Of a DNA stretch of 64,000 nt, positions 45,040 to 63,603 are shown piece by piece; within the stretch, counting starts at the first letter, position 1; every line of letters starts with the position of its first letter. A model generated the notes under the pieces. It searched no databases. It was not told the origin of the DNA and saw only the letters and a list, made by a program, of their open reading frames with translations. This DNA comes from Salinirubellus salinus. GTDB lineage: Archaea; Halobacteriota; Halobacteria; Halobacteriales; Haloarculaceae. Location of the stretch: assembly GCF_025231485.1 (NCBI RefSeq), contig NZ_CP104004.1, positions 1-64,000 of the forward strand, given 5' to 3'. The position numbers and the translations under genes were made by a program.

Positions 45040-48000
45040 TCAATCGGCGCTATACTGTTCCCGATTCGCGACGAAATCGTCGTACCAATTGGACAGTTCG
45101 GTCACAGTGGTTGCTTCTGCGACAGTGCCGTCGTCTCCAACCACGCTGATAGTGCCGTCTCTACCCCAGCCGCAGACAACCGGGCGGGACGACTGTCCTT
45201 TAGACTCGGTGAATTTCACCAGTCGCTCAGTCCCATCCGAGGTCGTCCTCCAAGTCTCGACAAGATGCCGCAATAACGGGTTTCCGGGCGCGAGATAGTG
45301 AAGCGATGGGAACTCATCCGCACATTCGTCCGAGAACGTCACTGCAACCTCCTCATCGTCCGGAGCAATCACGGAAGCCAGAGTCCCCTCTGTGTCCAAC
45401 TCTGGAATAGACTCTATGTCGCTGACTTCCAGTCGGTACGTACACTCTCCGAACTCGAAGCCGTCCCCGTATTCGGTGTCAGTCACATCTATCCCGAGCT
45501 CGTCGACGCTCGTGAATCGGATTCCAGCATCGACGAGAGCTTCGCTGCTGGTCAAGACCGACTCAAGGGATTGCACAGTGAACGGCGTATCTGCGTCGTA
45601 GTCGTCAGCACCGACATCGAGGATATCTGGATGGTTGAACGATTCCCAGGCATCGAGCTTCGCCTCGTCAATTACGTCTTGGGCGAGGGGTTCATCGATG
45701 TCGTCCAGCGATTCACCGACATCAACCCTGTCGCTCTCTTCCTGCTTCTCGATCCGGTCAGAGAACTCCTTATCAGCTCGCTCAACCGCATCTCGGCTTT
45801 CATCCCGCTCCGTCTCTAGCGTCGCGGAACGAATCTGGCTGCTGACTCCAGAGAGGATCGGCTGCATATCGCCAACAACGTTTTCGAAGAGACCAATCCG
45901 TGCGTCCAGTCGCTCGTAGATGTCCGTCTCGACCGTGTCCTCGTAGCTGTAATTGAGAATCGTCACCTCGTCGTACCGCTGTCCGATACGGTCGATTCGC
46001 CCGATACGCTGTTCGACACGCATCGGATTCCACGGGAGATCGTAGTTGATGAGAGCGCCACACTCCTGAAGGTTCAGCCCCTCACTGGCAGAGTCCGTAC
46101 AGACGAGAATATCGACTTGCCCATCGTCCGCTGCGAACTCGCGCTTCACCCGCTCTTTGCCGACGTGAGTCCACGACCCCGAGTCGCCATCGTACATCTC
46201 GCCGCCGCGGCCAGAGTAGGTCGCGACAGTCTCACCGTGGATAGACACGAGGCTCTGACGGATGAAGTCCATCGTGTCCGCATACTGCGTAAAGATGATC
46301 GCCCGGTTGTGCCCCTCGTGATCCAGTTCGTTGAGATCGTCGATGAGTTGGCCGATTTTGGGGTCCTGGTCTATCTCCGCCAGTTCGTCGACGAACGACT
46401 CCAGTTCCTCGATTTCCTGGTCTAAGAGATGGAGTCCCTCGTCAGTGACGTTGGGGATGATCTCAGCGAGATCAGCATCTTCCAAGTCGCCCTCCAGTTC
46501 TTCCAGCGCCTCCACATCCTCAAGATCGTACTCGGAGAGCGTCTCCATCACCACCTGACGAGAGCCGCCCGAATCCGCTTCCTGAGCACGCTGTTTCCCC
46601 CTAAGCACTGTCCGCTGTCCCCGGAGTTTCTTGAGGCGGTTCTGGAGACTCTGCGAAATCGCATAGACGCTGCTGGTGAGACGTTGACGGTACGTCGTCA
46701 TCACGAACCCAATCGCCCGGGATTCTGCCTCGTCAGACTGCTGGGCGAGCTTGTAGAACTTCCTCGTGTAATCGTCGATCCGGTCGTAAACGCGGCGCGT
46801 TTCGTCGGTCAGCTCAATCTTGTGCTGCTCTGGATTTCGGTCGGGGACAGTCGCATCAAGGAGTCCCACACGCTCGTACTTGCGGAGAGTGTCACGGGTA
46901 TTCCGATGGATGAGCGCATCGACAGGGGTCGACTCCCCGAGGACGTCCTGAACGACCTTCCAGCCTGATTCCGAGAGCTCGTCGAGCGCTGCAAGGCGTT
47001 CGTTCCGCGAGAACGTCAGCCACTCCTCATCCGCTTTCCACGCAGGGTACAGGAGGTACTTCAGCTTCTCGTCCTCTTTGGCGTCGAATGGGTCGACATC
47101 GTGCTCGTCCATCGCGGATTCGAACACGTCGATGTACCCATCGTAGTGTTCGCCGTAGTCACTGGCGAGGTCACATGCCCGAAGCACGCGTTGTTTGGCG
47201 ATAGACCGGGCCTGCTGGTCGTCACCCACGTCCAGTTCGGTGCCGACCGCGTCGAACACGAGGTCGGAGAGGCTCCGTTCACCAGGGAGCCGGTCTTGAT
47301 ACCGGCTTTCGGTGAGCGTCGCCTGTGCGGACCACGACTCGTCGTTGGAAGAGGTATCACTACCCACCTCCTTGTCCAGCGCTTTCGTGAGCGCACGGCG
47401 GGTTTCGAAGAACTCGACGAACTCGTCTTGATTGTCCCACTCCCCAGGGAGGTCGAGCAAGGACATCAGATCGTACAACTCGCCCGCATGCAACTGCATG
47501 GGTGTCGCGGTGAGGAGGTAGTACGCCTGCGTGTGGTCGCGGAGACGTTCCAGCATCGAGTAGAAGCTGCTCCCTTTGCGTCCGTTGTGGGCCTCGTCGA
47601 CGATGACTGCGTCCCACACACCCTCTCGGTTCGACGTCTGCCGGCCGCGACAACTCGCAGGCACCTCGTCGCGTGTTCGCGTCTGGCCGCCATCCTTGGG
47701 GGCGACCTGATCCCATCGATCACGTAGTCTCGCAGTATGCCAGGACATGATGACGATCGCGGGGCCGCTGTTCTCGTCGCCGTCCTGATGGTCGTGGAGG
47801 AACCGCCACATGGGGCTCTCCACCCAGGCCTGTTCTCGTTCTTGGCCCTGGAGGTCGAGTTCGGACGCTCCTGGCGGGGAGTGTTCGCGTCCGAACGCAT
47901 CGATGAAGGCGTACTCGTAGTTGCTTCCTCGCTCGTAGCGGTAGGTGTTCAGATTGAACTTCTCCCACATCTCCTCCTGCCACTGAACAGTGAGGCTTGC

Positions 48001-48969
48001 CGGGACGAGCAACAGTCCAGTCTCAAGCTCGTCAGTCAACCCGAGGCGAGAGAGTGTGAGCCCGGCTTCGATGGTCTTCCCGAGACCGACCTCGTCACAG
48101 AGCAGGAAGCTGTTCGGATAGGTGTTGACCAGCGTATCGGATACGACGCGCTGGTGCGGCCACGGTGTAATCGTGCTGCCTTCCTCGGCAAGTGCGAGTC
48201 CGCCCGGAGAGAGGTGCCCATCGGAGATGATGTTCGCCTTGTCGCGTTCCGTCGGCGGTGCTTCACCACGGGCGATTTGAATCGCTTCCTCGAGTTTCGT
48301 CTGCGAGTCCGGATCCTTCCAGTCGATGAGTTCCTTCTCGATGGCTTCCGGGAGGTCGTACACCTCGACGTAGGGGTGTTCGTTCTCCCAGAGTCGGTCG
48401 AAGGTATCGATGTCGCCGTCGACGTACGTCGACTGCTGGTCGACCCACGAACGGTGGACTTTGAACCGCTCGTAGTTGTTCTTCCACCCGCCGACGGTCT
48501 CGTTCACGCTCCCTTCGAACGAGAGCGCATTCCCATCATCGTCGTGAAAGATACCCATCTTCGGGTGGAAGATACGCCAAGAACCCTCGCGGGGAACGGC
48601 GACCTTGATGTGTAGACGACCTTCTCGGAGGAGTCGGGCGAGAAGTTGGAGCTGTGCGTCTAACTGCTCGTCCTCCAACTCTTCGAGCTCGTCGGTCAGT
48701 TCGTCGGTGAGTGCCTCGAAGATCGGGCGGTCGGTGGAGTAGAGTTCGGTACCGACGACGAGTCGCATCTCGCCGTCGTTCTCGAGGAGGGCGTCGATTC
48801 CTCGGGAGGCGACCGCGAGCGCGCTGCTAGAGAAGTACCCGGCGACGCGGTCGTAGCGAATGGATCGTTTGAGGGCAGGGACATAGAATTCATCGACTAG
48901 ATACATCCCGTCGGCAGTGGGCTTGCTCTCGTAGATTGAAGACCAAGATCGATCCGGGAATGTCGACAT
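45040..48969 (-). CDS. SNF2-family helicase with N-terminal PLD-like domain
   Basis: A 1309-residue protein. Residues ~20-200 form a PLD-like module: RYDRVAGYFSSSALAVASRG, then IFHPKMGIFHDDDGN with the His-x-Lys, and SFEGSVNETVGGW. The SF2/SNF2 core has CDEVGLGKTIEAG (Lys298), VIVDEAHNG (Asp458-His461), LLTATPMQ and, at the C-terminal RecA domain, CTDSASEGLNLQECGALINY and RVEQRIGRIDRIGQ. The C-terminal ~200 residues are acidic and unassigned. Helicases of this plan occur in DISARM-like and related defence loci. It is the last gene of the minus-strand array, 87 bases after the methyltransferase stop. Confidence 0.85.
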   Translation of the reverse strand: MSTFPDRSWSSIYESKPTADGMYLVDEFYVPALKRSIRYDRVAGYFSSSALAVASRGIDALLENDGEMRLVVGTELYSTDRPIFEALTDELTDELEELEDEQLDAQLQLLARLLREGRLHIKVAVPREGSWRIFHPKMGIFHDDDGNALSFEGSVNETVGGWKNNYERFKVHRSWVDQQSTYVDGDIDTFDRLWENEHPYVEVYDLPEAIEKELIDWKDPDSQTKLEEAIQIARGEAPPTERDKANIISDGHLSPGGLALAEEGSTITPWPHQRVVSDTLVNTYPNSFLLCDEVGLGKTIEAGLTLSRLGLTDELETGLLLVPASLTVQWQEEMWEKFNLNTYRYERGSNYEYAFIDAFGREHSPPGASELDLQGQEREQAWVESPMWRFLHDHQDGDENSGPAIVIMSWHTARLRDRWDQVAPKDGGQTRTRDEVPASCRGRQTSNREGVWDAVIVDEAHNGRKGSSFYSMLERLRDHTQAYYLLTATPMQLHAGELYDLMSLLDLPGEWDNQDEFVEFFETRRALTKALDKEVGSDTSSNDESWSAQATLTESRYQDRLPGERSLSDLVFDAVGTELDVGDDQQARSIAKQRVLRACDLASDYGEHYDGYIDVFESAMDEHDVDPFDAKEDEKLKYLLYPAWKADEEWLTFSRNERLAALDELSESGWKVVQDVLGESTPVDALIHRNTRDTLRKYERVGLLDATVPDRNPEQHKIELTDETRRVYDRIDDYTRKFYKLAQQSDEAESRAIGFVMTTYRQRLTSSVYAISQSLQNRLKKLRGQRTVLRGKQRAQEADSGGSRQVVMETLSEYDLEDVEALEELEGDLEDADLAEIIPNVTDEGLHLLDQEIEELESFVDELAEIDQDPKIGQLIDDLNELDHEGHNRAIIFTQYADTMDFIRQSLVSIHGETVATYSGRGGEMYDGDSGSWTHVGKERVKREFAADDGQVDILVCTDSASEGLNLQECGALINYDLPWNPMRVEQRIGRIDRIGQRYDEVTILNYSYEDTVETDIYERLDARIGLFENVVGDMQPILSGVSSQIRSATLETERDESRDAVERADKEFSDRIEKQEESDRVDVGESLDDIDEPLAQDVIDEAKLDAWESFNHPDILDVGADDYDADTPFTVQSLESVLTSSEALVDAGIRFTSVDELGIDVTDTEYGDGFEFGECTYRLEVSDIESIPELDTEGTLASVIAPDDEEVAVTFSDECADEFPSLHYLAPGNPLLRHLVETWRTTSDGTERLVKFTESKGQSSRPVVCGWGRDGTISVVGDDGTVAEATTVTELSNWYDDFVANREQYSAD

Positions 48970-49056
48970 TATGAGGACGTGACTCTGAGTTCACAGCATT
49001 CCCACTTATATTGTGTGACGGGATACTGGATATCCGAGTCAGGGTAAAGAAGGGAG

Positions 49057-51957
49057 TCAGGGAACTGCTGACTCAGTAGTCGTCGATGCCTGTCTGCTGG
49101 GTCTGCTGGTTGTCTTCAGCGAAGACGTTCGGGCTGAAGTCAGGTCGAGGACGTCTCGGGTTCGTCCGACTGCGAGGTCGCGGGCGAGTTCCCAGTCCTC
49201 GTGGTCGTGAGGGAGAACTTGAAGCAGAGCCTGAAGCGTCGCTTTGAACGTCGAATCGGAGTCGAAGTTCCGTTCACGAAGCCAGTCGCAGCAGGCGCTC
49301 TCTCCCTTCACGTCGTAGATGTGCATCGCAGCGTGAACCTTGTCCAGAGCAAGCCCAAACGAGAGGTCGTCAGGGTTCACCGGGATACGGCTGGATCGGT
49401 TCTCTGGTTTTTCATTCGCGTTCTGGACACGATCTGCGTGCCCCCGGAGTCTCATATCGCCCCTGCTTTTGCGCCAAGTCTTCGTGCTGCGCTTGATGTC
49501 ATCGACGTCGACACCGATACCGTACCCGAGCTGAAGCCCCTCATCGTAGGAGAATGTATCCGATTCGTGAACGAGCCAGCAGAGGATGTACCACTCCGTG
49601 ATATCGTCAAGATCGCCGATTCCTTCTGCTTCGAGATACTCGTCGACCAGGACCTGAGTAACCGCTTCGCGCGCCTCCTCAAGTGCACGCCGTGGAGGTA
49701 CTTCGTTGTCTTCGTCGTCGACAACAGGATATGCGTCAGCGAAGACGCGGAGGGTTGGACCGAACGCGCTGATAATCACGTCAGTCTTGGTGAGACTTAG
49801 GCCCGAGTCAATGAGATCGCGTGCAGCGTTCTTCGCGGCCGCTCGTGTGTCTGATTTCACGTCGTTCCAGAGCGTCGGAACTGCATTCTCTGGATCGCGC
49901 TCCTGGTGCGGCTTGCGCCCCGTTAGCAGGAGAGTGCTATCTGCCGATGCACTCTCGCGCATCCCTGCTCGTTGAGGCATTTCGCTCGTGATAGGGTGCG
50001 TTGACGTGATAGTGAACCCAGAGTTGATGAGCGACATCGTCAGCGTGTCCCAGGCATCAGTTTCCTTGTGAGTGAACATCACCGTCATTACGCCGCCCGG
50101 TTCAAGGACCCGATAGAGTTCAGAGAAAATCTCGCTCATTTTTCGCTCGTAGGAGTCATTAGCGAGGTCTCGTTTTGAAGAACCATTTCCAGCGACGCCA
50201 TCGAAGCGGTCCGGATTCGCTACAGCTTCGTTCTCTTTATCAGTGAGACTCTCTCGGAAGATGTCCGGGAAGACATCATCAAGCAGTTCGCGCATCCATA
50301 CGTAGAACACGTCCGAAAGTTCGGCGTACATGATACTGCTGTAGTACGGTGGATCTACAACGACCGCACTAACACTATCTTCAGCTTGGTTCAGATTTGC
50401 AGCATCACCGACTGAAACATTAGCTGGGTCTGAGCCTTCGGGGAGATAGCCCACAAGTTCACCATACGACTGATATATTTTGTCGACGTACGAGACGAAG
50501 TCGACACCACCGACCGAAATATTATTATCTGTAAATACCCGCTTGAAGGCGAGGTTTTTGCCTTTGAACATACGGCTGGGATATCCTTTGCTCGTGTCCC
50601 AGTCTGCCAAACGACTATTCCGGTCGATCAATTTGCTGAACGAGAGGGTCAGCAGTGTAAGGATGGCCTCCGCAGTCTTTTGATTATGTTCTTCCTCAAT
50701 CTGCGGCTGGAAGTGATTTATAGCGTCAACATATTCGTAATTACATACCAACTGTCGTGGAGAGAACAACTCGCGCCATTGATTGATACCGAAATTACGA
50801 GGCTCTGCTGTTTTGTTCCCTTCCGGAATTGGTGTCGATAAGAATGTCGAGAGCTCGAAATCAGATTGGATACGATCTCGGGCGGCGTCTAATGCTTCCA
50901 CATCAGCTTCATTTGGTGACCGGAACCCATGGTGGCCGTCACTTTTCAGATATCGGACGCAATATACATCGTAGTCAAATTCGCCTTCGTTAAATCGTTC
51001 TCTTACCTCATCATCCTCAGTTACAACCCCACACCTCAGGCATTCTGCATCGCCTCCTCTGGAGACCGGGCCATTATCAGCATCAAACCCACGGAGATCC
51101 TCTTCATCTGGATTGACGATGACTTCGTACTCTACCGTTCCGTCATCTAATATCTCGGGCCGAACGACTACCCGTATCCCATCGCTTCTGGTTCGAATCC
51201 ACCACTTGGTCACCAGTGGAATTTCCGCTCCACACGAACGGCATTGGACGTGGTACGTGCAAACGTAGTTATCGGGCGTGTGGCTTTCTCGGGTGCTGGG
51301 GAAGTATTCCTGAATTCGAGGCTTCGCCCTGTCGTCGACTTTCTTTGCCCAGCGTTTCACCTCGCTCTCGATATCACCTACTGCTGGAGCATATTCCAGC
51401 ATGACTTTCAGAATCAGAGACGGTACTGGGTTGAGCTCGTTTGCATGGGTCGGAAGTCCATATCGAAGAGACTCATACGGAATCACACCGCCCCCAGCGG
51501 TTGGATCTAATACCGACGGAAGCTCACCATCCCAGTGTTCACGGAGCGCCTCGTGAATCTCTGCTCTCTCTGAATCGGTAGGAGACTGGGTGAAGGGACG
51601 GGGATACCCGTAGTGACTTTCTAAGTTCCCACTTCGTTGGTCTTCGGTCGCCTTCTTTCGTTCTACGTATTCGTTTAGACTGCCCTCGACCTCCCGGTTG
51701 GGCCCAATTTGCATCCAGCGAAGCAGGTCGTCAGAATCGATGCCTTGGGGCAGCACCGAAGCAAGAATAGCGAGCCGCGATGCCGGCGTCGGTCGTCGTG
51801 CGAACCAAGGGTGGAGATACCTATGGGGAGGGAGATACTGTGGGTTTGCTTCACGCAGGTTCTCAATGCCGACCGTTTTCAACGGGAGTTTCCCCTCGAT
51901 GGCGAGAGGCTTCAGAGACGAATCCTCCTCCGAGTCGTGAATTGGATTTTCACTCAT
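49057..51957 (-). CDS. DUF1156-type DNA methyltransferase
   Basis: A 966-residue protein. The N-terminal DUF1156 signature includes YLPPHRYLHPWFARRPTPAS. The SAM-binding motif is VLDPTAGGGVIP (from Asp151) and the catalytic motif is DPPYYSSIMYAELSD (Asp535), the amino-methyltransferase type (N6-adenine or N4-cytosine). A zinc-binding insert has CRSCGAEIP and ECLRCGVV. The last ~25 residues, Ser/Thr-rich, look wrong: one frame over, the same bases read DFSPNVFAEDNQQTQQTGID and stop at 49073, so one indel near 49143 probably changed the C-terminus. It presumably marks self DNA for the associated DUF499/helicase array. Confidence 0.85.
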   Translation of the reverse strand: MSENPIHDSEEDSSLKPLAIEGKLPLKTVGIENLREANPQYLPPHRYLHPWFARRPTPASRLAILASVLPQGIDSDDLLRWMQIGPNREVEGSLNEYVERKKATEDQRSGNLESHYGYPRPFTQSPTDSERAEIHEALREHWDGELPSVLDPTAGGGVIPYESLRYGLPTHANELNPVPSLILKVMLEYAPAVGDIESEVKRWAKKVDDRAKPRIQEYFPSTRESHTPDNYVCTYHVQCRSCGAEIPLVTKWWIRTRSDGIRVVVRPEILDDGTVEYEVIVNPDEEDLRGFDADNGPVSRGGDAECLRCGVVTEDDEVRERFNEGEFDYDVYCVRYLKSDGHHGFRSPNEADVEALDAARDRIQSDFELSTFLSTPIPEGNKTAEPRNFGINQWRELFSPRQLVCNYEYVDAINHFQPQIEEEHNQKTAEAILTLLTLSFSKLIDRNSRLADWDTSKGYPSRMFKGKNLAFKRVFTDNNISVGGVDFVSYVDKIYQSYGELVGYLPEGSDPANVSVGDAANLNQAEDSVSAVVVDPPYYSSIMYAELSDVFYVWMRELLDDVFPDIFRESLTDKENEAVANPDRFDGVAGNGSSKRDLANDSYERKMSEIFSELYRVLEPGGVMTVMFTHKETDAWDTLTMSLINSGFTITSTHPITSEMPQRAGMRESASADSTLLLTGRKPHQERDPENAVPTLWNDVKSDTRAAAKNAARDLIDSGLSLTKTDVIISAFGPTLRVFADAYPVVDDEDNEVPPRRALEEAREAVTQVLVDEYLEAEGIGDLDDITEWYILCWLVHESDTFSYDEGLQLGYGIGVDVDDIKRSTKTWRKSRGDMRLRGHADRVQNANEKPENRSSRIPVNPDDLSFGLALDKVHAAMHIYDVKGESACCDWLRERNFDSDSTFKATLQALLQVLPHDHEDWELARDLAVGRTRDVLDLTSARTSSLKTTSRPSRQASTTTESAVP

Positions 51958-51959
51958 GG

Positions 51960-52601
51960 TTAGATATGATCAGTCAGTAGCGTTCGTAGTGCTTTTTCGC
52001 CGTTCGGTGAAGACGGGGAACGACACTTTGCGTGCCAGTAGTAGCACTCTTCGTCGCTCATTCGCGCGATACCACGACAGAACGCCCGCATCCGGTCAAC
52101 CCGCTGAATGGGCTTTACACCAAGGAAGCCCAGAGCCAATCGAACGCCGACGGTCTCCGGGAGGAACACCTCGGCAGCACCGCCAGCGGTGAGTACAGAC
52201 TCATCTCGGTCTGCCCCACGGAGCGTCTCCCGTACCAGCGGGAGGATAGAGCGGAGCCGACTCTCAGACAGCCGCGTGACTTTCATCGCCGTCCAGTCGT
52301 CCCACTCCCATCTGTCGACCTCTGGATCCGCTGACTCTCCGAACACCGATTCGAACGCTTCCGTCACGAGGCCCCGATTGGGGTTACCACGCTGGAGACG
52401 GTCACGACGAGCGGACGCCTGCGCCTCGGGCAGTAGTTCGTACAGTGTCAGCGATGCACCCTCGGCGTCGTCACGACGGACGAGCGCGAAGGTTGGGCGG
52501 CCCCCGTAGACGCTACTGCCGAACTGGCCTGCTCCGATCGTCTCATCTTCGGGGCCGAGCGTTGGTGGCGCGTCTGCGTCGGGGGTAGGGTGGGACGTCA
52601 T
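51960..52601 (-). CDS. small protein of the DUF499/DUF1156 array
   Basis: A 213-residue protein. A beta-rich N-terminal part (GGRPTFALVRRDDAEGASLT, LYELLPEAQASARR) is followed by a helical half with VTEAFESVFGE and ALGFLGVKPIQRVDRMRAF and a C-terminal ECYYWHAKC that might bind a metal. Its start overlaps the DUF499 stop and its stop is two bases before the methyltransferase start, so it belongs to the system. I recall no characterised homologue and give no function; a specificity or adaptor subunit is possible. Confidence 0.7.
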   Translation of the reverse strand: MTSHPTPDADAPPTLGPEDETIGAGQFGSSVYGGRPTFALVRRDDAEGASLTLYELLPEAQASARRDRLQRGNPNRGLVTEAFESVFGESADPEVDRWEWDDWTAMKVTRLSESRLRSILPLVRETLRGADRDESVLTAGGAAEVFLPETVGVRLALGFLGVKPIQRVDRMRAFCRGIARMSDEECYYWHAKCRSPSSPNGEKALRTLLTDHI

Positions 52602-55600
52602 TGCTGAACCTCTGCGGGTACTTCGACCGGTCCTCGGCCTTGAACCTTCACGTCGATGTTCGTCGAGCCGAGCTCGTCCTGGAGCTCCGCGAGTACGTCG
52701 TCTTCCGCGTCCGTGATTGGCTCGGGGTCGTTCAGATCGACGCGGAACTTTAGTTCGACGAGCGACGCGCCGTCGAACGGGTCTGGCTGGTTCGTTACAC
52801 GGGAGAACTCGTCGATACCGCCGGTGAAGTCAGCCTGGTACGACGCCCCGGCCGACGACTCCGTCTTGTACCGCATCCGTACCGAGACGTTGTCTGCCCG
52901 GTCCTTGAACGCTTGGCGTTGGGCGATGAACGAGCCCTTCGACAGCTGATCGTCGCCACCAAGCTCGATAGTGACGCGATCAATGCCAGGAGTGCCGCCC
53001 GAGGAGGCTTTTCCGAGAGCGTGCGTCCGAACCTCGTTGAAGGCTCGGGAGGTCGCCATCAGACTCGTCGACCGCTCCCAGTCGTTCGGCCCGTCACACC
53101 GCGAACAGAGTCCATCAGGCCCCAGCTGGTCGACTTCCCGCCCGCATTGGTGACAAGTCAGCTTCTCGGGCTCGTGTTGAGGGCAGTACTGCTGGTCGAC
53201 ACCGATCTCGTTAGTACATCCTTCCTCTGCGCACGTATCCTTCGTCGTCTCTGGCGGTCGGATGACATCGTGGTGGACGTCGAGGAGCGCGTTGACATCG
53301 GTGTAGACGACGTACTCGTCGCCGATCTTGACGTCCGAATCACGAATGCTCGTGCGGACGTCCGGCGACCCGGAGAGCGGATTTGCCTTCCGCCAGTTCT
53401 CCGGACGGTCGTCCTCGTCACCGTCCCAGTAGGCGAGACCGTTCTCGCCAGCGGTGCTGTCCCAGTACGTGTACCCCGCGTCGTCGACCATCTTCGCCAC
53501 CGTCTTTCGAAGCGGCTTGGTGTTGAGGAGGTACGGGAGCCCGGGCTTCTTCGCGAACTGCGTGACCAACTGTTCGGTGGTCATGCTGTCCTGGGTCTGC
53601 TGCCAGAGCTTCTGTTTGAAGAACGCGACCCCTTTCGGACCCGCGTCAGCGCGAATTAACCGGTCTTCGAGCGTCTCTTCGACGGCGTTGACGAGCGTCG
53701 TGCCACCGTTCGCTTCAGTGGCGTTGATCGCCAGATGCGTCAGGCCGTCTCGGTCGACGTAGTACAGGTGACGGTACACACCCCGGACGAGTTCACCCAA
53801 GAGTCCGTGCGTCTGATCACGGCGCTCACGGAGCTCCTCGATCTGCTCGTTGGAGAGGTCGGCCGTCTGCTGGGAGTCGTCGAGGAGAGCCTCGATGGCT
53901 TCCAGCTGACGCGCCTCGTCGATCGCACCTTGGATACGTTCCTTGTCAGGGGCGAGGAAGAGGACGTAGTTCTTGTAGACTCGGCTCTGGGTCTCGCCAC
54001 CGTGCTTCGAGGCGGATTTCTGGTACAGCGTCTGAATCTTCTCCGGAATTTCACTCCCACCGTCGGAGACAGGGGCGGTGTCCATATGCATCACCGCGAG
54101 CTGGGGCTTGGAGACCTTGTCCGGAAGGTCAGCTGGTGACTCGGGGAAGACGACGGTCTTGAAGCCGCCAGTCCCAATCTCTGTTTTCTCTAGCCGGGAT
54201 TCGAACCGATTGCGCGCCTGCGCGTCGGGCGTGTTGTCCACCCGCTGGTCGATGATACGGATGAGGTTTGGATCAGACTTGAACCGGACGCGCTCCTCGT
54301 CGTAGAGGTAGTAACACGCGACGTTCATGTCGCCGCCAGACAGCGCCTCCAACGCCGAGTCGTAGTTGTCGAAACGGATGTCGGGGTGGCCGAGTGCGGC
54401 GTTCATCTCCGCACGCGTGAGTCCGGTTGCTTGCTCCCCGTAGGCCAGGCTATGCCAGAGGACTGTTGTCGTCAGATGGCCGCCCAGCGGTGGAATCCCT
54501 TTCTCTGTCCACTTGCGGTCTTCGAGCTGGGCATGGGCCGTGTTGTCTTCGCTGTAGATGTCAGCCGAGACAGCCGCACTTAGGTCGACGAATTCGAACA
54601 GCGTCTCACGAAGCGTCGAGTCGATACTCCCGTCGGGAGCGTTGTCAGCGGGCGTGAGGTCGTACAGTCGAATCCAGTGGCGGTCGTAGTGATCGGGCTG
54701 GTGGTTCCAGAGGTAGTAGACCGCCCGTGCGAGGAGCTTCAGTGCGCCTCGGGTTCGCTGGAACTTCGGAATCGTGTCGATCTTCTCCGTGAGCGTATCG
54801 ATGATCGTCGGGTGGAACGGGTATTCGCGTTCCAGCCGGTCGACGAAGCTGGCGTCCGTCGCCTCCTGCGGGAACTGTCGGTCACTCCCCGCGTAGTACT
54901 GGAAGTACGATTCGGCGAGCGTCTCTGCCTGGTCCCGTTCGATTTCCTCGAAGAGTCGGTGCTGGAGAACCTGGCCAACTTCGTTTTCGGAGGTCGGCGT
55001 GACGGTCTTGTGCTGTCGACGGCCGATCTGGTTCAGTTCGTCGATGAGCGTCCGAACTTCCTCTGCCTCTTCTTCGAAGGCAGTGTCCGCAATACTGTAT
55101 ACGACCGTGACCTCGTCGACCTCTGACGCGGTTTCGAGGAGTGAGAGAACGAAGCTCAGGGTCTGGCTGGCTAGCGTCGCGTTCCCGACTTCGACCGCGG
55201 ACGCCGCCTCGAGGTAGGCTGCGATCTCGTCGATGAGGATGAGGGCAGGACCATCACCAAGCTCGAACAGCCCTTTTAGGGTGTTCCCGCCAGGTGCGTT
55301 CCGATCCTGATCATATTCTTTGATATACTCGTAGCCATCGAGGCCATACAGCTGGTAGGCGATTTCTCCCCACATCGTCCGCGTGTTCGGAGCGTTCGGG
55401 TCTGACCGGTCGCTCCGGGCGTTTCGGGCGTCGACGTGTCCCCCCACGAAGACAGACGTGTCGACGTTGAGCCCCTGATCTACCGCATCCAGATAGGCAG
55501 CACCGAGGTCTTCCTCACCCTCGACGAGATGGCGGTTCAGATCGTCGATATCTGTCGGATTATTCGCGAGGTGGTACGAGGCGATGAGGTCGTGCGTCTT

Positions 55601-55897
55601 CCCGCCACCAAAACGGGTATCCAGGCACAGAATACTGCTGGAGTAACCACCGCTATCGTACCCGCCAGCCGCGAGGAACCGCCCCGCGAGGTTGCTCAGT
55701 AGCGTCCGAAGCCCGTCGGTCGGGTACGTCATATCGAAGAACTGCGTCGCATTCCGATAGACTGGAGCGGCGTCGTCCGGCGAATGTGCGACAGTTGCCA
55801 GGCTTGCGGCGAACTGGTCCTCCTGTAGCGTTCCGTCGAGGACGTCTCCCCGAGGAGTACATGCGTCAAACAGACTCGGATAATCTGAGCTACTCAT
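52598..55897 (-). CDS. DUF499 P-loop ATPase
   Basis: An 1099-residue ATPase. Walker A is CLDTRFGGGKTHDLIAS (Lys100); Walker B is ALILIDEIAAYLEAA. DUF499 features include VYSIADTAFEEEAEEVRTLI and REYPFHPTIIDTLTEKIDTI. Near the C-terminus a pair of zinc fingers is visible (CAEEGCTNEIGVDQQYCPQH and CHQCGREV with LCSRC). DUF499 proteins are the large ATPase of methyltransferase-linked defence loci and are thought to act like BrxC/PglY of BREX. It overlaps the small protein downstream and the AbrB-like gene upstream. Confidence 0.88.
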   Translation of the reverse strand: MSSSDYPSLFDACTPRGDVLDGTLQEDQFAASLATVAHSPDDAAPVYRNATQFFDMTYPTDGLRTLLSNLAGRFLAAGGYDSGGYSSSILCLDTRFGGGKTHDLIASYHLANNPTDIDDLNRHLVEGEEDLGAAYLDAVDQGLNVDTSVFVGGHVDARNARSDRSDPNAPNTRTMWGEIAYQLYGLDGYEYIKEYDQDRNAPGGNTLKGLFELGDGPALILIDEIAAYLEAASAVEVGNATLASQTLSFVLSLLETASEVDEVTVVYSIADTAFEEEAEEVRTLIDELNQIGRRQHKTVTPTSENEVGQVLQHRLFEEIERDQAETLAESYFQYYAGSDRQFPQEATDASFVDRLEREYPFHPTIIDTLTEKIDTIPKFQRTRGALKLLARAVYYLWNHQPDHYDRHWIRLYDLTPADNAPDGSIDSTLRETLFEFVDLSAAVSADIYSEDNTAHAQLEDRKWTEKGIPPLGGHLTTTVLWHSLAYGEQATGLTRAEMNAALGHPDIRFDNYDSALEALSGGDMNVACYYLYDEERVRFKSDPNLIRIIDQRVDNTPDAQARNRFESRLEKTEIGTGGFKTVVFPESPADLPDKVSKPQLAVMHMDTAPVSDGGSEIPEKIQTLYQKSASKHGGETQSRVYKNYVLFLAPDKERIQGAIDEARQLEAIEALLDDSQQTADLSNEQIEELRERRDQTHGLLGELVRGVYRHLYYVDRDGLTHLAINATEANGGTTLVNAVEETLEDRLIRADAGPKGVAFFKQKLWQQTQDSMTTEQLVTQFAKKPGLPYLLNTKPLRKTVAKMVDDAGYTYWDSTAGENGLAYWDGDEDDRPENWRKANPLSGSPDVRTSIRDSDVKIGDEYVVYTDVNALLDVHHDVIRPPETTKDTCAEEGCTNEIGVDQQYCPQHEPEKLTCHQCGREVDQLGPDGLCSRCDGPNDWERSTSLMATSRAFNEVRTHALGKASSGGTPGIDRVTIELGGDDQLSKGSFIAQRQAFKDRADNVSVRMRYKTESSAGASYQADFTGGIDEFSRVTNQPDPFDGASLVELKFRVDLNDPEPITDAEDDVLAELQDELGSTNIDVKVQGRGPVEVPAEVQQ

Positions 55898-56261: not shown

Positions 56262-57950
56262 CTAGCAGATGAGTAAGAATAACCAAAATGGAAGGTAGCA
56301 GATGTTTACATCGTTCTTTTCGACAACTAGTGACCCGTTTTCTCGCACCTCTTTCGGGAGGCTATCCGTGATGATGAAGCGGTATGGTGCTTCGTAATCG
56401 AGGTCACGGAGATCCTCACTATCGTCCTCAGTATGCTGCCCGACACCGGGGTCAAACTCCGTCGCGATTTGTTCTGCCGACTCAGTATGTGGATGGTAAG
56501 AGAGAATGAACGGCAGCACTTTCCCCTCTCGATGGAGAACATAATCAACTAATCCGGCGTCAGTTGGACAGTACTCGACTTCGTATGCTTTCACCGCGAA
56601 CGACAGACGCATCGCGTGGTCGAACGCCACAGTTCGAGCCAATTTGTACTCGAAGTCGAAATTGAGATCGTTCTGCTGACTGTATTCCTCGAATCCGAAG
56701 TGTTCCTGGCGCTGTGAGAGTAGCACAACGTGTCGAGGATTGCGAAGATAGAGTCGCGTTCGTCGGTGGCGTCGCAACGAATAGTCGTGAGACTCAGTTA
56801 CTGCGATTCCATCGTCGAGGATGCCGAGGTAGCTATCGACCGTTCGTCTATCGACGCCGATTCGGTTGCTTATCTCTGTGTATTGGAGCTCCTCACCCCC
56901 CTGACTAGCAGCAATCGAACTCAGCCGATGAAGGTTCTCGGGGTTCTGAATAGAGCCGTATTTTGCTAGTCCCTTGTAGAGGTATAGGAGAAAGTGCGAA
57001 CGGACAATCTCGTTTCTGATGGAGGAGTCGTCAGTCTGGTGTAACGTACCACCTTTTCTCAGGTAATCACGCGCAGCGTCATGGAAATCGTCGCGTTCGG
57101 ATGGATTGAAGAACTCGAAATATAGCGAATTGAGGGAGTCGATCGCGGAATTAATGCTAGTGTCGGATGATTTCAGGTTGAGTCCCCTCCGAACATCTTT
57201 GATTGGATGCGGGCCAGCAATCCGATCAGACCGGAGGGATTCAAGCTCTTCCCTAAACTCGTGGTTGAAATCAACGCTCAGCCCTCCCTCTTCTTCTGGA
57301 TGCCCGATGGTGTCAACAAATTTCATCGGGAGTACTCCCCAGGGTCTTTCGACGTGATCAATCTTATCGGCCTTCGTTAGTTCACGGAGGTTGACCTGCT
57401 CCTTGACGATTCCTGTCAGGAATAGATAGGTGTCCTCATTTACGAACTCTAAGAGGGTCTCTTTCTCATTCTCGTCAAGGTTCAGAATATCGACATCGTC
57501 TATGAGAATGTACTTCGTTCCATGTCGAGGAGCAATATGAGAGTAGAAGTAGTCAATTACCTGCTTCAATCGTTCAATTCCCTCACCCGGGCGTTCTAAA
57601 TGGTATTGGGATGCCTCAAGGGGGAGGTAGAGTATCTGACGTGGTGAGATAGATGAGACTATGTCGAATTCAGGGTCTTTTGGAGGAAATTCGGTAGTCC
57701 CTATTAACGCCGCCACGAGTTGATACAGGAGCGTTGTCTTGCCAATCCCTGTCGACCCATAGATTGGATAAACTAAGTTGTCAGTCCCTTTTTCATCGTG
57801 CTTGTGTACCGCTTCCAGAATCTTATGGAAGTCTGAACGGGGTGTGAGATCTACAGCCTCCTCCAAATCTTGACCTACTCCCTCGCTCCACCATTCGTTA
57901 TGACGCTCGGCGTCGGCGATGAAATCCTCTGCTCGGGATTCCTCAGTCAT
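56262..57950 (-). CDS. AAA ATPase with DUF4143-like C-terminal region
   Basis: About 562 residues from the ATG at 57950 (MTEESRAEDFIADAERHNEW). Walker A is YGSTGIGKTTLLYQL; Walker B is KYILIDDVDILNLDENE; sensor 1 is LFLTGIVKEQ. A winged helix (YTEISNRIGVDRRTVDSYLG) is followed by a PD-(D/E)XK-like C-terminal domain, with RLSFAVKAYEVEYCPTDAGL. This is the layout of prokaryotic AAA_14/DUF4143 proteins, which are frequent in archaea and mobile elements and functionally unclear. ATAAGTATTA at 57977-57986 is its promoter candidate. It is divergent from the Argonaute gene. Confidence 0.7.
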   Translation of the reverse strand: MTEESRAEDFIADAERHNEWWSEGVGQDLEEAVDLTPRSDFHKILEAVHKHDEKGTDNLVYPIYGSTGIGKTTLLYQLVAALIGTTEFPPKDPEFDIVSSISPRQILYLPLEASQYHLERPGEGIERLKQVIDYFYSHIAPRHGTKYILIDDVDILNLDENEKETLLEFVNEDTYLFLTGIVKEQVNLRELTKADKIDHVERPWGVLPMKFVDTIGHPEEEGGLSVDFNHEFREELESLRSDRIAGPHPIKDVRRGLNLKSSDTSINSAIDSLNSLYFEFFNPSERDDFHDAARDYLRKGGTLHQTDDSSIRNEIVRSHFLLYLYKGLAKYGSIQNPENLHRLSSIAASQGGEELQYTEISNRIGVDRRTVDSYLGILDDGIAVTESHDYSLRRHRRTRLYLRNPRHVVLLSQRQEHFGFEEYSQQNDLNFDFEYKLARTVAFDHAMRLSFAVKAYEVEYCPTDAGLVDYVLHREGKVLPFILSYHPHTESAEQIATEFDPGVGQHTEDDSEDLRDLDYEAPYRFIITDSLPKEVRENGSLVVEKNDVNICYLPFWLFLLIC

Positions 57951-58231
57951 GTTGTCTATGATTATTCGGCCAATCATAAGTATTACTCCATCTTGATGTC
58001 GCTATCTGAGAGAGTACTCTCGTTCGCTCACGGCATATTAGGTGAGTAGAATAGAAGGGGACAAGGTGGCTGATATTGATTACAAGTCCAAATATCTCCC
58101 AATATGCCCGCGTGGGCCTGCTTGAGGGAATAATCCCCTCCAATATCTCGTTTCACTTATTTCAAAAATAGCGTATTCCGACTTACGCTAGTGGAAAGAT
58201 ATTTGTCGACGGTTGCCCATGTCGTTGGTAG
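57951..58231. promoter_or_regulatory. divergent promoter region, ATPase and Argonaute
   Basis: This 281-base interval contains the minus-strand TATA-like element (~57977-57986) 27-36 bases from the ATPase ATG. AT-rich segments at 58075-58110 and 58150-58205 include TTCAAAAATAGCG and AAAGATATTTG, which may drive the Argonaute gene. No strong palindrome stands out. Confidence 0.4.
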
Positions 58232-60775
58232 ATGCCGACGCAGGCCGACATCGAGGATGGGGAAAGAATCGACATCACGGTCCAGGTGGTGGCTGAACTG
58301 GACCGGCCAACGAGTAAAATGGCCAAGCGGCTCAAAGTCCGCGACACTGCGGGTAACGAGTTCCCGCTCGCAATCTGGAACAATAACGCGCTGAGCGACT
58401 TCGCTTGGGAGTCGGGGCGCTGGTACGAACTTGAGCACGCAAAAGGAAACGAGTTCCGGGGTGAGAAGAGTCTGAACGGGTCTTCACGACTACGCGCTGA
58501 AGTCGTCGGATCACCCGTGGATGACACCGACAACAGCAGCGCGTCAGAGAAGAGGTCCGGGGATCAGCTATTCGACACGCTTCAGGATAATCTTCCGTAC
58601 CTCTCGCTGTTCCCCTTCGATCGCCACTTCGAGACGCTATCTGTCTACGAGTACCGCATCGAAGCCGACGACGCGTTCGAGGACAGTCCGATGGACGCGA
58701 CGTACAATCTCGCAGCGTACCTCCGCTCGTCCAGTAACGCGGCCGTCACGCACGCGGGCGTGATGTCGCTCATATCTACCGAGCCGCTGGAGGCGTACCT
58801 GCCTGACCCGTTTACACTCACGGGTGAAACTCGGGTCACCCTCCGAGCTGACGACACGGCTGACAACGAGACGATGGTTCGTCTCCTCCAGCAGCTGATG
58901 AAGAAGAGCATCAGAACCGACGAGTACGAGACGGGGCGGGTGGACCGTATCCGCACGAAGGAACCCGTTATCAGTGGGCCAGAGGGACTCTTCGAGGCGT
59001 GTCTCGCATATCGGCTTAGCATTGAGGTGCTTCCCTCCGGTGACGCCTACGTCGGGGTTGAGGCTAGCCACCACGCCCGCAGCCAGGCGACCGTCGACGA
59101 GTACATGAACCGAGTGAGCGCGACGGTCGACGAACTCGTCGACACGCACGTCGAACACGACCCAGAAACCTACTCGACGCCCGGGAGCGGGCGACTCAAG
59201 GGCGTCTCAGACAAGCGGTTCACAGACCCGATTCCGGACTTCGGAAATCAGTCGCTCGCGGACTGGTACGAGCGAAAGGACCGCGTCTCGGACGAGATGC
59301 TGGAACAGCTTCGCTCGGAGAACCCGCGGCTCGTCGAAGTGCAATACAATCCCAACAGCGACGAGACGAGTGTCCACGTCCCGCAACTTCTCCGCGTCTC
59401 CCCGCGCAAAGAAGTCGTCAAGCAGTTGGCTCCGCGTTTCCATCGGGAGTGGGATCGCCGTGCGAAGATGCTCCCTGAGGAACGATTCCAGAAGGCGACG
59501 CAGTTCATTACAGGCCTGGATGAACTCCCGGCAGTCGAGACAAGCATCGACCCGACGCCCGTCGGGCCGAGTATTTCGTTCATGTCCACGGAGGTCGACC
59601 GCGCGGACAATCTCCGGTTCGGTAACGACCGCACCGCTGACCTCCCCGGCTCCGGCCTGAGTCGATACGGCGTCTACCGTCGTCCGTCCTCGTTCAAACT
59701 CCACTACCTCGTCCCGGAACGGTATGCAGACGACTTCGTTGAGTTCCGAGGTCGGATCGAGAAGCAACTCGAGGACATCAACTGCTCGCCGGACGAAACG
59801 TCCTACAGCGAGTACGTGTTGGGTCGTGAAATCGAGTACAGTAACGCAGCCGCTGCCATCAGCGATGTCGACGCTGTTCTCGCTGCTGTCCCATCGCCGA
59901 CGAACGACTTCATTCAGGACGGTACCATCGACGACCCGTACGGGGAGTTCAAGAAGGCGCTCGGCAAGCAGACGATTCCGTCGCAGATGGTCCGAGTGGA
60001 CAACCTCGACAACAAGTGGGTCGTCCGCAACACCGCGCTCGGTATCGTTGCTGGCGCTGGCGGTGTCCCTTGGCGTGTCGACCAGATGCCCGGTGATGCC
60101 GACTGCTTCGTCGGTCTCGACGCGACCCGTGACCCGGATACCGGACAGTTCCTCGGCGCGAGCGCGAACGTCGTGCTCGCAGACGGGACCGTGTTCGTCT
60201 CGAAGACGCAATCTCTCCAGTCCGGAGAGACGTTCGACGAGGACGCCGTTGTCGACGTACTCAAAGACGTTCACAGAGAGTTCGTCCGGGCCGAGGGCGA
60301 AGCACCCAACAGTATCGTCGTTCACCGCGACGGTCGACTGTTCGAAGATGTCGACGCCATCCTGGCCCCGTTCGACGGGACGGGAATCGACATCGACATC
60401 CTCGACATCCGGAAGAGCGGGGCGCCCCGTGCGGCGTTCCGACGTAACGAACAGTTCCGCGTCGACCACAAGGGGCGCATCTTCATCGCGCAGAACGACG
60501 ACTACGGCTTCCTCACGACCACGGGCCGACCCGAATTCGACGATAGCGATGGACTCGGAACCCCGCGAACGCTCCGCATCGTCCGGCGAGCGGGTGAGAC
60601 ACCGATGCAGACGCTAATGGAACAAGTATACTGGCTCAGCGAGAGCCACGTCGGGAGCGCCCAGCGGAGCACACGGCTTCCGATAACGACCTACTACGCG
60701 GACCGGTGTGCCGAGGCTGCACGGAAGGGGTACCTCGTCAACGGCGAGATAATCAGAGGAGTACCGTACATCTGA
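58232..60775 (+). CDS. long-type prokaryotic Argonaute with N-terminal OB fold
   Basis: An 847-residue pAgo. Residues ~10-95 form an OB-fold ssDNA-binding module (ITVQVVAELDRPTSKMAKRL, FPLAIWNNNALSDFAWESGR), as described for the Natronobacterium gregoryi Argonaute. N, PAZ and MID regions follow. The PIWI domain has a complete DEDD tetrad: Asp630 (FVGLDATRD), Glu666 (LQSGETFDED), Asp700 (VVHRDGRLF) and Asp824 (ITTYYADRC). It should therefore be a guide-dependent nuclease against invading DNA or RNA. It starts a plus-strand set with a YdjM-like protein and a PLD-SF3 protein. The start at 58232 is preferred because it leads straight into the OB fold. Confidence 0.9.
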   Translation: MPTQADIEDGERIDITVQVVAELDRPTSKMAKRLKVRDTAGNEFPLAIWNNNALSDFAWESGRWYELEHAKGNEFRGEKSLNGSSRLRAEVVGSPVDDTDNSSASEKRSGDQLFDTLQDNLPYLSLFPFDRHFETLSVYEYRIEADDAFEDSPMDATYNLAAYLRSSSNAAVTHAGVMSLISTEPLEAYLPDPFTLTGETRVTLRADDTADNETMVRLLQQLMKKSIRTDEYETGRVDRIRTKEPVISGPEGLFEACLAYRLSIEVLPSGDAYVGVEASHHARSQATVDEYMNRVSATVDELVDTHVEHDPETYSTPGSGRLKGVSDKRFTDPIPDFGNQSLADWYERKDRVSDEMLEQLRSENPRLVEVQYNPNSDETSVHVPQLLRVSPRKEVVKQLAPRFHREWDRRAKMLPEERFQKATQFITGLDELPAVETSIDPTPVGPSISFMSTEVDRADNLRFGNDRTADLPGSGLSRYGVYRRPSSFKLHYLVPERYADDFVEFRGRIEKQLEDINCSPDETSYSEYVLGREIEYSNAAAAISDVDAVLAAVPSPTNDFIQDGTIDDPYGEFKKALGKQTIPSQMVRVDNLDNKWVVRNTALGIVAGAGGVPWRVDQMPGDADCFVGLDATRDPDTGQFLGASANVVLADGTVFVSKTQSLQSGETFDEDAVVDVLKDVHREFVRAEGEAPNSIVVHRDGRLFEDVDAILAPFDGTGIDIDILDIRKSGAPRAAFRRNEQFRVDHKGRIFIAQNDDYGFLTTTGRPEFDDSDGLGTPRTLRIVRRAGETPMQTLMEQVYWLSESHVGSAQRSTRLPITTYYADRCAEAARKGYLVNGEIIRGVPYI

Positions 60776-60822: not shown

Positions 60823-61404
60823 ATGGGGAACTTCGACGAACATCTCAACGCGGGGAAGGCCGCCGGACTACTTGCTGCCGTAGTCGTTGGCTTCCTCGTT
60901 CTTGACCGCGGTGGAGGCATCGGAGAAACAATCATCGTCGCCGCCGGCGTCGGCGGCGTCCTCGTGGTAGGATCGCTACTACCGGACATCGATCATCAGG
61001 CGTCAAAACCACGGCAAGCTGCTGGCAGTCTGGGGGCACTCACGGTCGTCGGGGGCGTTATCGGACTCGTCGTGTTCGCACCAGATAGCGTCGCGCTACT
61101 CGGTGGACTCGTGAACACACTGGGTGTCGGTGGGAGTCCGTCTACTCTGGGTATCGGTGTTCTCGTGATCGGTGCGGTCGTCCTCCTCGCCACCGGTGGT
61201 GACACGTTCGATTCACTGACCACGCATCGTGGGTTCACGCATTCCCTGGCGTTTGTCGCCCTCGTTGGCGTCACGGCTCTGGTCGCTACCCAACAGCTCG
61301 CCAGTCTTGGTGGCGTCCTTGGTGTCTTCGAGGGACAGAACGGTGTATTAGTAGCCGGTGCAGCTGCTGCCGGAGTTCTCGTTCATCTCGCGGTGGACAG
61401 CTAG
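60823..61404 (+). CDS. YdjM/DUF457-like membrane-bound hydrolase
   Basis: About 193 residues from the ATG at 60823 (MGNFDEHLNAGKAAGLLAAV). Five or so membrane helices surround two conserved metal-type motifs, SLLPDIDHQAS and THRGFTHSLAF, the signature of the YdjM/DUF457 membrane metal-dependent hydrolase group. Such proteins are induced by damage in some bacteria, but the substrate is unknown. It lies 47 bases after Argonaute and 51 before the PLD-SF3 gene. A membrane partner in an Argonaute gene set could act as an abortive effector, which is speculation. Confidence 0.7.
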   Translation: MGNFDEHLNAGKAAGLLAAVVVGFLVLDRGGGIGETIIVAAGVGGVLVVGSLLPDIDHQASKPRQAAGSLGALTVVGGVIGLVVFAPDSVALLGGLVNTLGVGGSPSTLGIGVLVIGAVVLLATGGDTFDSLTTHRGFTHSLAFVALVGVTALVATQQLASLGGVLGVFEGQNGVLVAGAAAAGVLVHLAVDS

Positions 61405-61455: not shown

Positions 61456-63603
61456 ATGAAATTCGATATACCACTCAACACGGACGAATCGGACGCCAGC
61501 CACGTGGAGATATTCAAGAGCTGGCGGTCGTTCTCCGACGTCTTCGAGGGTGCAAAGCGGATGCGCGTGGTCACCTACTGTGATTCGCCCGAGTTCATCC
61601 TCGACCTCTTCGAGGATCTGGAGAACTTAGAACGGCTGGAGGTCGTTGTCGGAGACGTCGACGACTATCGCGAGCGACTCATCGATAAGCCAGACCTCGC
61701 GGACCGACTGGAACAACTGCGCCGAGACGACAAACTGGTCATCTACCTCTGTGAGAACAAGGAGGTTCACTCGAAACTCTACTTGATCGAATACCCGGAG
61801 GAGGATCACGCAGGCGAGGAAGCCGATGAGGACGACCAGATGACACTCGGTGGAGAAGCGACCACAGAATCGGACTCGTCAGCGGAGGCCAGTGCAGCAC
61901 CGGCGAAGGTCGTCATCGGGTCACCGAACCTATCCCGCAATGCCTGGTCGAACCAGACGAACGTCGGGGTCGTGTACGACACGACGGTAGAGAGCGACCT
62001 CTACGCACAGTTCGAAGACCTGTATCAGGATCACAGAGACTCCTATAACAAGGGGGGTCCTTTCCTCGAGGACCTCTCCGAACAGCTTGAGCAGTCGAAT
62101 GACGACCGCGAAGAGGTAATCAAACTGTACACGGAGGGGCGCGTTGGGACACAAGACGAACTCGGAGAGGTCCATGGCCGCCTCGCTGACCACATCGATG
62201 CTGAAGTTGAGACGGTAGATCTCGCGCTCGATGGCGGAACAAGCTCCGAAGACGAACGCAGTCAATCAGCGGATGACGCCGCGGGAACCGATGAGTCAGC
62301 AGGGGACGGTGATCCCGACATGGCTGATGCGCCACAGGATCGTATCACGCTGTCACTCAGGGGGTACGACGAGTCGACGGTGAGTACACTGTCTCAGATG
62401 ACCGATTTCGACGCGACGGTGTCGAACGATACGCTGACCACAACCCCAGACGCTTTCCAGCGGTACGCCCAGCAGGTCTTCGACGTGCCGACGATGCACC
62501 TGAACGAAGATAGGGATCAGCTCAAGTTCCACTACGACGGCACGGTCTACCGCGTCACGCAACCACCGAAGAGTCCGGAGAAGGTAGACGAGGCGCTTGA
62601 AGAGATTGAGAACTACTTCGCGACCGTCGACGACTACGGGAATTCCAATAATTCTACGGCGGTCAAGGCGCACATGTACGAAGCGCTCCTCTGGTTCTTC
62701 TGGGCCCCCTTCGCGAACCGACAAGCAGTCTTCTACCGACAGCACGGCATCAACCTCGACAAAGCGCTCCCCTACCTCTACATCTTCGGAGAATCGAACG
62801 GTGGGAAAGGCACCTTCTGCCGCTTCGCCCTGTCACTAATCAGTGGAAACCGCGTGGAGGCTCCGGTCGACGCTGACGAGATTGGCAAACGGAAAGTCCG
62901 GAATCTCAGATCGGCACACACGTCGTTCCCCGTCGTAGTCGACGACATCACCAAGCAGAAAGTGAACTCGTTAGATACGCTCCGGAACTACTGGAGCGGG
63001 TGGACCGGGGAAACGTCCTTCCCGATGTTCGCGTTCATATCCAACGACAAGCGGCCAGGAGAGTGGTTCCGGAACCGAGCCAAGATACTCCGATTCGACG
63101 TCAACTTCATGACCTCCCATCAGGGTGAGGCAGAAGTGAATCGCCTCATCGACACGGAGAATCCAATCTTCCAGTGGTTCGGACATAAATACCTGAACCG
63201 TGACCTCGTACTGGGAGAAGACTCAGATGCACTCCGTGAAGTCAGAGCCGCGATGCTGGATCTCTACGAATTTGCTGACCGCCCCGTACCGGACTACTTC
63301 CCGACCGAACCGGCCGAGCAAGCGTACGATACCGGTCGGGAGCGCTGGCGTAACCTCATCGACCGCGAGGATGTCGAGATTAGCAAAGACGGGGATACAC
63401 TTCAGGTGACGTTTCCGGAGTCGATGAGCTTCGAGCTACATGAGTACAAACGCGACCCACCGATGACGGTTCGAATTGAGAAGCGAGGCCTCGATTTGAT
63501 CATCAAGACGCCGGACGAGTTCTTCGACTGGCTTGGTGAGACGACTGCCGACGATCCCAGGGAAGGATTCCTATCTCGAGCCCGAAACCTATTGAAGAGA
63601 TAA
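61456..63603 (+). CDS. PLD nuclease fused to SF3-like P-loop ATPase
   Basis: A 715-residue two-part protein. The N-terminal PLD domain has one HKD set: His105-x-Lys107 in EVHSKLYLIEYP and Gly155-Ser-x-Asn158 in IGSPNLSRNAWSNQTN, so a dimer is expected. After an acidic linker and a central domain (RITLSLRGYDESTVSTLSQM), an SF3/primase-helicase-like ATPase follows: Walker A IFGESNGGKGTFCRF (Lys451), Walker B FPVVVDDIT (Asp496-Asp497), sensor MFAFISNDKRPGEW and arginine region FRNRAKILRFDV. The combination suggests an ATP-driven nuclease recruited by Argonaute. It is the last intact gene of the set. Confidence 0.75.
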   Translation: MKFDIPLNTDESDASHVEIFKSWRSFSDVFEGAKRMRVVTYCDSPEFILDLFEDLENLERLEVVVGDVDDYRERLIDKPDLADRLEQLRRDDKLVIYLCENKEVHSKLYLIEYPEEDHAGEEADEDDQMTLGGEATTESDSSAEASAAPAKVVIGSPNLSRNAWSNQTNVGVVYDTTVESDLYAQFEDLYQDHRDSYNKGGPFLEDLSEQLEQSNDDREEVIKLYTEGRVGTQDELGEVHGRLADHIDAEVETVDLALDGGTSSEDERSQSADDAAGTDESAGDGDPDMADAPQDRITLSLRGYDESTVSTLSQMTDFDATVSNDTLTTTPDAFQRYAQQVFDVPTMHLNEDRDQLKFHYDGTVYRVTQPPKSPEKVDEALEEIENYFATVDDYGNSNNSTAVKAHMYEALLWFFWAPFANRQAVFYRQHGINLDKALPYLYIFGESNGGKGTFCRFALSLISGNRVEAPVDADEIGKRKVRNLRSAHTSFPVVVDDITKQKVNSLDTLRNYWSGWTGETSFPMFAFISNDKRPGEWFRNRAKILRFDVNFMTSHQGEAEVNRLIDTENPIFQWFGHKYLNRDLVLGEDSDALREVRAAMLDLYEFADRPVPDYFPTEPAEQAYDTGRERWRNLIDREDVEISKDGDTLQVTFPESMSFELHEYKRDPPMTVRIEKRGLDLIIKTPDEFFDWLGETTADDPREGFLSRARNLLKR

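Follow-up and report, generated by a model that had tools for sequence, protein, structure and literature searches.

What use does a haloarchaeon make of a protein in which a nuclease and a replication-type ATPase share one chain? The question is raised by Salinirubellus salinus, of which we analysed a window (the whole stretch of 64,000 nucleotides, bases 1-64000 of a 249-kb contig in a 4.38-Mb genome). The original prediction for the ORF at 61456-63603 had been a single-HKD PLD nuclease joined to an SF3/primase-helicase-like ATPase, serving either as a replication helicase recruited to defence or as a decoy that senses viral replication intermediates. We found that H105, K107, G155, S156, N158, G445, K451, D496 and D497 all lie where they had been placed, that the ORF begins with ATG and runs through 715 codons with no internal stop, such that the PLD and SF3-style motifs do occupy one unbroken frame, and that AlphaFold models match both predicted folds. 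Motif C, R541, the adjacent Argonaute and membership in a known two-gene system had not been listed. We describe the product as an AgaP-like protein (715 aa; 61456..63603, + strand) with an N-terminal single-HKD PLD nuclease and a C-terminal SF3-like AAA+ ATPase, and propose that it probably acts as an Argonaute-directed, ATP-powered nuclease, the AgaP of an APAP operon, with a ring-forming SF3-like motor.

The nuclease and ATPase halves of AgaP

The N-terminal half combines an HKD motif with a PLD fold. Its nuclease domain (aa ~15-200; 61498..62055, +) was delimited from PLDc_2, Foldseek and residue invariance: the Pfam model PLDc_2 matched the window AgaP weakly (E 8e-4) and was matched in 27 of 27 family members, and the full-length AlphaFold model (pLDDT 81) returned the PLD nucleases NgoAVII R-protein, Nuc, NucT and Zucchini. 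Conservation was counted over 74 distinct full-length AgaP homologues; H105, K107, S156 and N158 are present in all 74 and G155 in 73, which suggests that the PLD residues form an active site, as the original prediction supposed. AgaP has its PLD catalytic core in common with the restriction and nuclease enzymes Nuc, BfiI, NgoAVII R-protein and SauUSI, but differs from them in that its catalytic motif is split, with H105-x-K107 (61768-61776, +) and G155-S156-x-N158 (61918-61929, +) separated by 47 residues. SauUSI and NgoAVII are PLD nucleases tied to DNA restriction; SauUSI depends on ATP and has an SF2 motor, whereas the ATPase of AgaP is SF3-like. In single-HKD enzymes such as Nuc, two copies pair to make each active site. 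The canonical D after HxK is not kept in AgaP, where E112 is found in 38 of 74 homologues, and the D/E after HxK was also dispensable for AgaP toxicity (PMC11442185).

The two halves are separated by an acidic linker (aa ~256-296; 62221..62343, +), modelled at low confidence (pLDDT <50 at aa 259-291) and the segment with the lowest identity to homologues. A small strand-rich domain follows (aa 297-370; 62344..62565, +), recognised from the secondary structure of the model and without a confident match of its own, and precedes the SF3-like AAA+ core (aa 371-610; 62566..63285, +), which was defined by conservation, models and structural matches.

Within this core we found Walker A (G445-E-S-N-G-G-K451-G; 62788-62811, +), Walker B (VVVDD, aa 493-497; 62932-62946, +) with its acidic pair D496/D497, motif C (ISND..P, aa 525-534, comprising S529-N530-xxx-P534; 63028-63057, +), in which the hydrophobic stretch FAFISND ends in N530, and a candidate Arg finger, R541 (63076-63078, +). 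G445, G450, K451, D497, N530, P534 and R541 are invariant in 74 of 74 homologues, and D496 (44/74) and S529 (49/74) vary. Because most of the named PLD and ATPase residues are invariant or nearly so across 74 distinct homologues, their occurrence in AgaP is not due to chance. No clear motif B' was seen by eye in the alignment between Walker B and motif C.

Structural comparison placed this half near SF3 helicases. The C-terminal 421 aa were modelled with high confidence (pLDDT 88, pTM 0.86), and the best seven PDB matches to the isolated domain were all SF3 helicases (E 1e-6 to 4e-4), including SCCmec Cch (1.3e-6), SV40 large T and the JCV helicase; SaPI5 primase-helicase, vaccinia D5, MPXV E5 and ASFV PrimPol came later, amid generic AAA+ proteins. 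Neither a STAND nor a kinase fold, either of which would have told against the original prediction, was among the listed best structural matches, Pfam gave no STAND family for AgaP, and we rejected that reading on structure. Matches in the BFVD viral structure library were viral primases and SF3 helicases. In profile-profile comparison the ATPase domain aligned with haloarchaeal D5_N/DUF5906 proteins over 174 columns (P 2.3e-5), compared to 10-31 columns for six control families; a Rad50 control reached a similar P-value but over 14 columns, the P-loop alone. Among PHROGs, a weak DNA primase match (phrog_1139) was found in 9 of 27 members (best E 0.0044). A PDB sequence search with the AgaP family profile returned nothing, and the SF3 models of Pfam, NCBIfam and PADLOC did not match AgaP, for which those libraries gave weak PLD matches only. 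We term the domain SF3-like, and assign it to no named SF3 family, because TM-scores to SF3 structures were modest (0.2-0.4) and none of the SF3 models in Pfam matched.

AgaP thus resembles the SF3 primase-helicases (SCCmec Cch, SaPI5, poxvirus D5, papova large T) in the order of Walker A, Walker B (DD), motif C (SNxxxP) and Arg, in predicted fold and in its profile match to D5_N/DUF5906 proteins, but is very distant from them (about 12-16% identity in structural alignments), carries a PLD nuclease in place of the N-terminal primase and was not observed within a replication operon. Of the large parts of AgaP, the ATPase is under the strongest constraint: identity to the orthologue of Natrinema pellirubrum, discussed below, is 90% in the ATPase core compared to 75% in the PLD domain, and dN/dS in the core was 0.014-0.031 for the three nearest relatives compared and 0.159 for a 59%-identical clade. 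This C-terminal ATPase is unmentioned in Cheng et al. 2024 (PMC11442185), and a term search of Makarova 2009, Ryazansky 2018, a YprA-helicase preprint and an archaeal defence survey from 2026 found no ATPase or SF3 domain in the AgaP PLD family; among open-licence papers, the domain appears to be unreported.

An Argonaute partner and its surroundings

Upstream of agaP on the same strand, with one gene between, lies the gene for its partner protein, a long-A prokaryotic Argonaute of 847 aa (58232..60775, +). It was matched by Pfam Piwi (4e-14), PADLOC pAgo (1061 bits), CbAgo (E 3e-39) and TtAgo, and alignment to CbAgo gave a complete DEDD tetrad (D630, E666, D700, D824), in which D630 is the same residue as in NpAgo. 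The intervening gene (582 nt; 60823..61404, +) encodes a YdjM/DUF457-like membrane protein (Pfam YdjM 1.4e-12) and is spaced 47 and 51 nt from the flanking ago and agaP genes in an operon-like arrangement. It is limited to the closest loci (a fragment in genome G318), and we rejected it as a core component on the ground that N. pellirubrum and most loci are without it.

A plasmid search identified the pNATPE02 locus of N. pellirubrum DSM 15624, which encodes a protein about 80% identical to the window AgaP over 715 aa (80.0% in the plasmid search and 81% in the comparison that gave the dN/dS values). That protein has H105/K107/E112/G119/S120/D122/G157/S158/N160, the residues mutated or discussed in PMC11442185, and its Walker A (FGESNGGKGTF) is identical to that of the window AgaP. 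Judged by sequence, the window AgaP is an orthologue of N. pellirubrum AgaP, and the nuclease-Argonaute pair is one already known. Both loci have an adjacent long-A pAgo with a DEDX tetrad, short intergenic distances and a split HxK...GSxN motif at the same H105/K107; they differ in the YdjM-like gene between ago and agaP in the window and in the spacer between HxK and GSxN, which is 47 residues in the window and 49 in N. pellirubrum. Where N. pellirubrum AgaP would be expected, the gene table of the plasmid lists a C-terminal fragment and two ORFs on the minus strand (L137:11911-14154), and annotation-based surveys could miss a gene tabled in this way.

The N. pellirubrum Argonaute and its Ago-associated PLD protein, AgaP, together named APAP, defend Haloarcula hispanica (Cheng et al. 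2024, PMC11442185). AgaP alone was toxic, and its toxicity required H105, K107 and the distant GSxN and was suppressed by Argonaute; plasmid resistance required the catalytic residues of AgaP and not those of Argonaute, while resistance to the ssDNA virus HHPV-2 depended on Argonaute catalysis and was greater with AgaP. The proteins were not obtained soluble from E. coli, and no test of the C-terminal half was reported (PMC11442185). Toxicity and mutants together suggest that AgaP is a nuclease, and we found no ATPase, helicase or nuclease assay for any member of the family in open-licence literature. With a pAgo adjacent and an orthologue of ~80% identity tested in H. hispanica, the recruitment to defence suggested in the original prediction is supported.

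On the opposite strand, a divergent AAA/DUF4143 ATPase of 571 aa (56262..57977, -) is a candidate accessory component. Strong homologues were found at 24 of 97 AgaP-like loci among the matches listed (18 with Argonaute, 6 without); 37 strong homologues were counted in all, 26 of them close to AgaP or Argonaute. It has a weak PDC-S01 match, and N. pellirubrum also has a homologue, annotated 'AAA family ATPase'. It is possibly a third APAP component or a regulator, though not essential for the published phenotypes, because the published construct, the ago-agaP operon with 300 bp upstream, would have left it out (PMC11442185).

The APAP locus is directly adjoined by a putative defence cluster similar to HmaABC (45040-55897, -), consisting of a PLD-helicase (45040-48969, -), a DNA methylase (49057-51957, -), a DUF7680 protein (51960-52601, -) and a DUF499 ATPase (52598-55897, -). 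Two large adjoining ORFs of 1100 and 1255 aa were found in the ORF list at 37901-44970 (+), the second beginning with a UvrD/AddA-like P-loop region. Downstream of agaP, past the window end (L031:12108-14364), are a small protein, a 163-aa protein and a ThiF (E1-like) plus JAB protein, and this ThiF/JAB ubiquitin-like module also occurs 3' of several Argonaute-less agaP loci.

Distribution with and without Argonaute

Linkage between AgaP and Argonaute was assessed in 394 Halobacteria genomes, with AgaP-like loci counted among the matches listed and a cut-off of 12 kb for proximity to a Piwi gene. The named genomes carrying close AgaP homologues are Halobacteria. There were 97 AgaP-like loci in 92 genomes among the matches listed, and 26 of the 97 were less than 12 kb from a Piwi gene, compared to 0.08 expected by chance; conversely, 26 of 49 Piwi genes have a nearby AgaP-like gene. 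The remaining 71 of 97 had no Piwi gene within 12 kb, a count that is an upper bound because the Piwi search may miss divergent Argonautes. Since most of the loci listed are without a nearby Argonaute, Argonaute direction cannot be the sole mode of AgaP. On a maximum-likelihood tree of 74 proteins, Argonaute linkage underwent at least 8 state changes; the tree was quick and has long branches, such that its deep branching order is uncertain.

The Argonaute-less members all keep the catalytic residues. The small Argonaute-linked clade of the window is sister to six Argonaute-less loci (L034-L039), with AgaP proteins ~85% identical to that of the window. An AddB-like nuclease, a UvrD-like helicase and a YprA-like helicase are neighbours at these six loci, as is a divergent 375-aa protein whose OB-like start resembles an Argonaute N-terminus. 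Other Argonaute-less loci adjoin Rad50/NurA/HerA-like operons. A strongly conserved and mostly Argonaute-less clade of 757-760 aa proteins (L065, L066, L101-L129), spread over many halobacterial genera, keeps the catalytic residues with GKD instead of GKG in Walker A, and no constant neighbour was found among the neighbours inspected. More distant relatives occur as single genes on bacterial plasmids (L138, L140-L143) of Arcobacter, Athalassotoga, Limosilactobacillus, Ligilactobacillus and Lactobacillus, where their annotation goes no further than phospholipase D family or ATP-binding protein. Like AgaP, they have the PLD-then-ATPase order, HxK, GSxN, GxxxxGK, the Walker B Asp and the motif C Asn; they differ in that no Argonaute is annotated nearby, in H-x-R in place of HxK in the Limosilactobacillus protein and in sequence, with the Arcobacter protein about 23% identical to AgaP over the ATPase half.

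This distribution is what would be expected if AgaP were mainly a stand-alone PLD-ATPase defence nuclease that recognises foreign or replicating DNA, with Argonaute a later and optional addition. The 71 of 97 listed loci without Argonaute within 12 kb, the eight or more gains and losses of linkage, the bacterial single genes with their motifs and the Argonaute-less loci beside AddB/UvrD-like or Rad50/NurA/HerA-like genes all favour such a role. In the tested system, however, AgaP by itself is lethal and depends on Argonaute (PMC11442185), and Argonaute is adjacent in the window and in close kin, which makes this account possible but on balance unlikely.

Proposed action of AgaP

SF3 AAA+ proteins are rings that move along DNA. 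If AgaP is the Argonaute-directed, ATP-powered nuclease that we favour, its SF3-like ATPase most likely forms a ring too, bringing PLD domains together and moving along DNA. Argonaute would keep AgaP inactive at rest; once loaded with a guide, it would bind invading plasmid or ssDNA-virus DNA, and AgaP could load upon target binding. The ring may then use ATP to translocate along the DNA or unwind it, and so feed it to the PLD domains, where it would be destroyed.

In the main alternative, the same domain would be a nucleotide-dependent switch and no motor, with ATP binding oligomerising AgaP, the HKD motifs pairing as a result and Argonaute controlling the step. The single HKD motif, the flexible acidic linker to the nuclease half and the suppression of AgaP toxicity by Argonaute (PMC11442185) are all in keeping with this. 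Invariance of the Walker B Asp, the motif C Asn and R541, however, fits a protein that hydrolyses ATP better than one that only binds it, and the SF3 relatives are translocating helicases; a pure switch is therefore doubtful. The other half of the original prediction, a decoy of viral replication helicases sensing viral replication proteins or intermediates, draws on the resemblance of the fold to viral SF3 proteins, but no test favours it. A decoy should mimic something current, yet no close relative of AgaP or its SF3-like half was found in IMG/VR or phage records, and every catalytic motif is intact and under strong conservation, on which ground we rejected this highly improbable reading. 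That AgaP is a replication or mobile-element helicase-nuclease placed beside Argonaute by chance on a plasmid, as the many AgaP genes on haloarchaeal plasmids and the SF3 kinship with plasmid and phage primases might suggest, is scarcely credible and was rejected given Argonaute co-occurrence far above chance and the demonstrated immunity of the orthologue (PMC11442185).

For an ATP-powered nuclease under Argonaute direction, the intact and conserved SF3-like motor offers a testable answer to how APAP destroys plasmid DNA with Argonaute catalysis off, namely by a motor-fed or motor-assembled nuclease, and the residues to mutate are those named above. The many Argonaute-free and bacterial single-gene relatives mark a PLD-ATPase family. 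We suggest, tentatively, that AgaP may be one branch of widespread and largely Argonaute-independent PLD-SF3 'motor nucleases' in archaea and bacteria, in which replication-type motors were turned to DNA degradation and to which haloarchaeal Argonautes were joined several times over to provide targeting.
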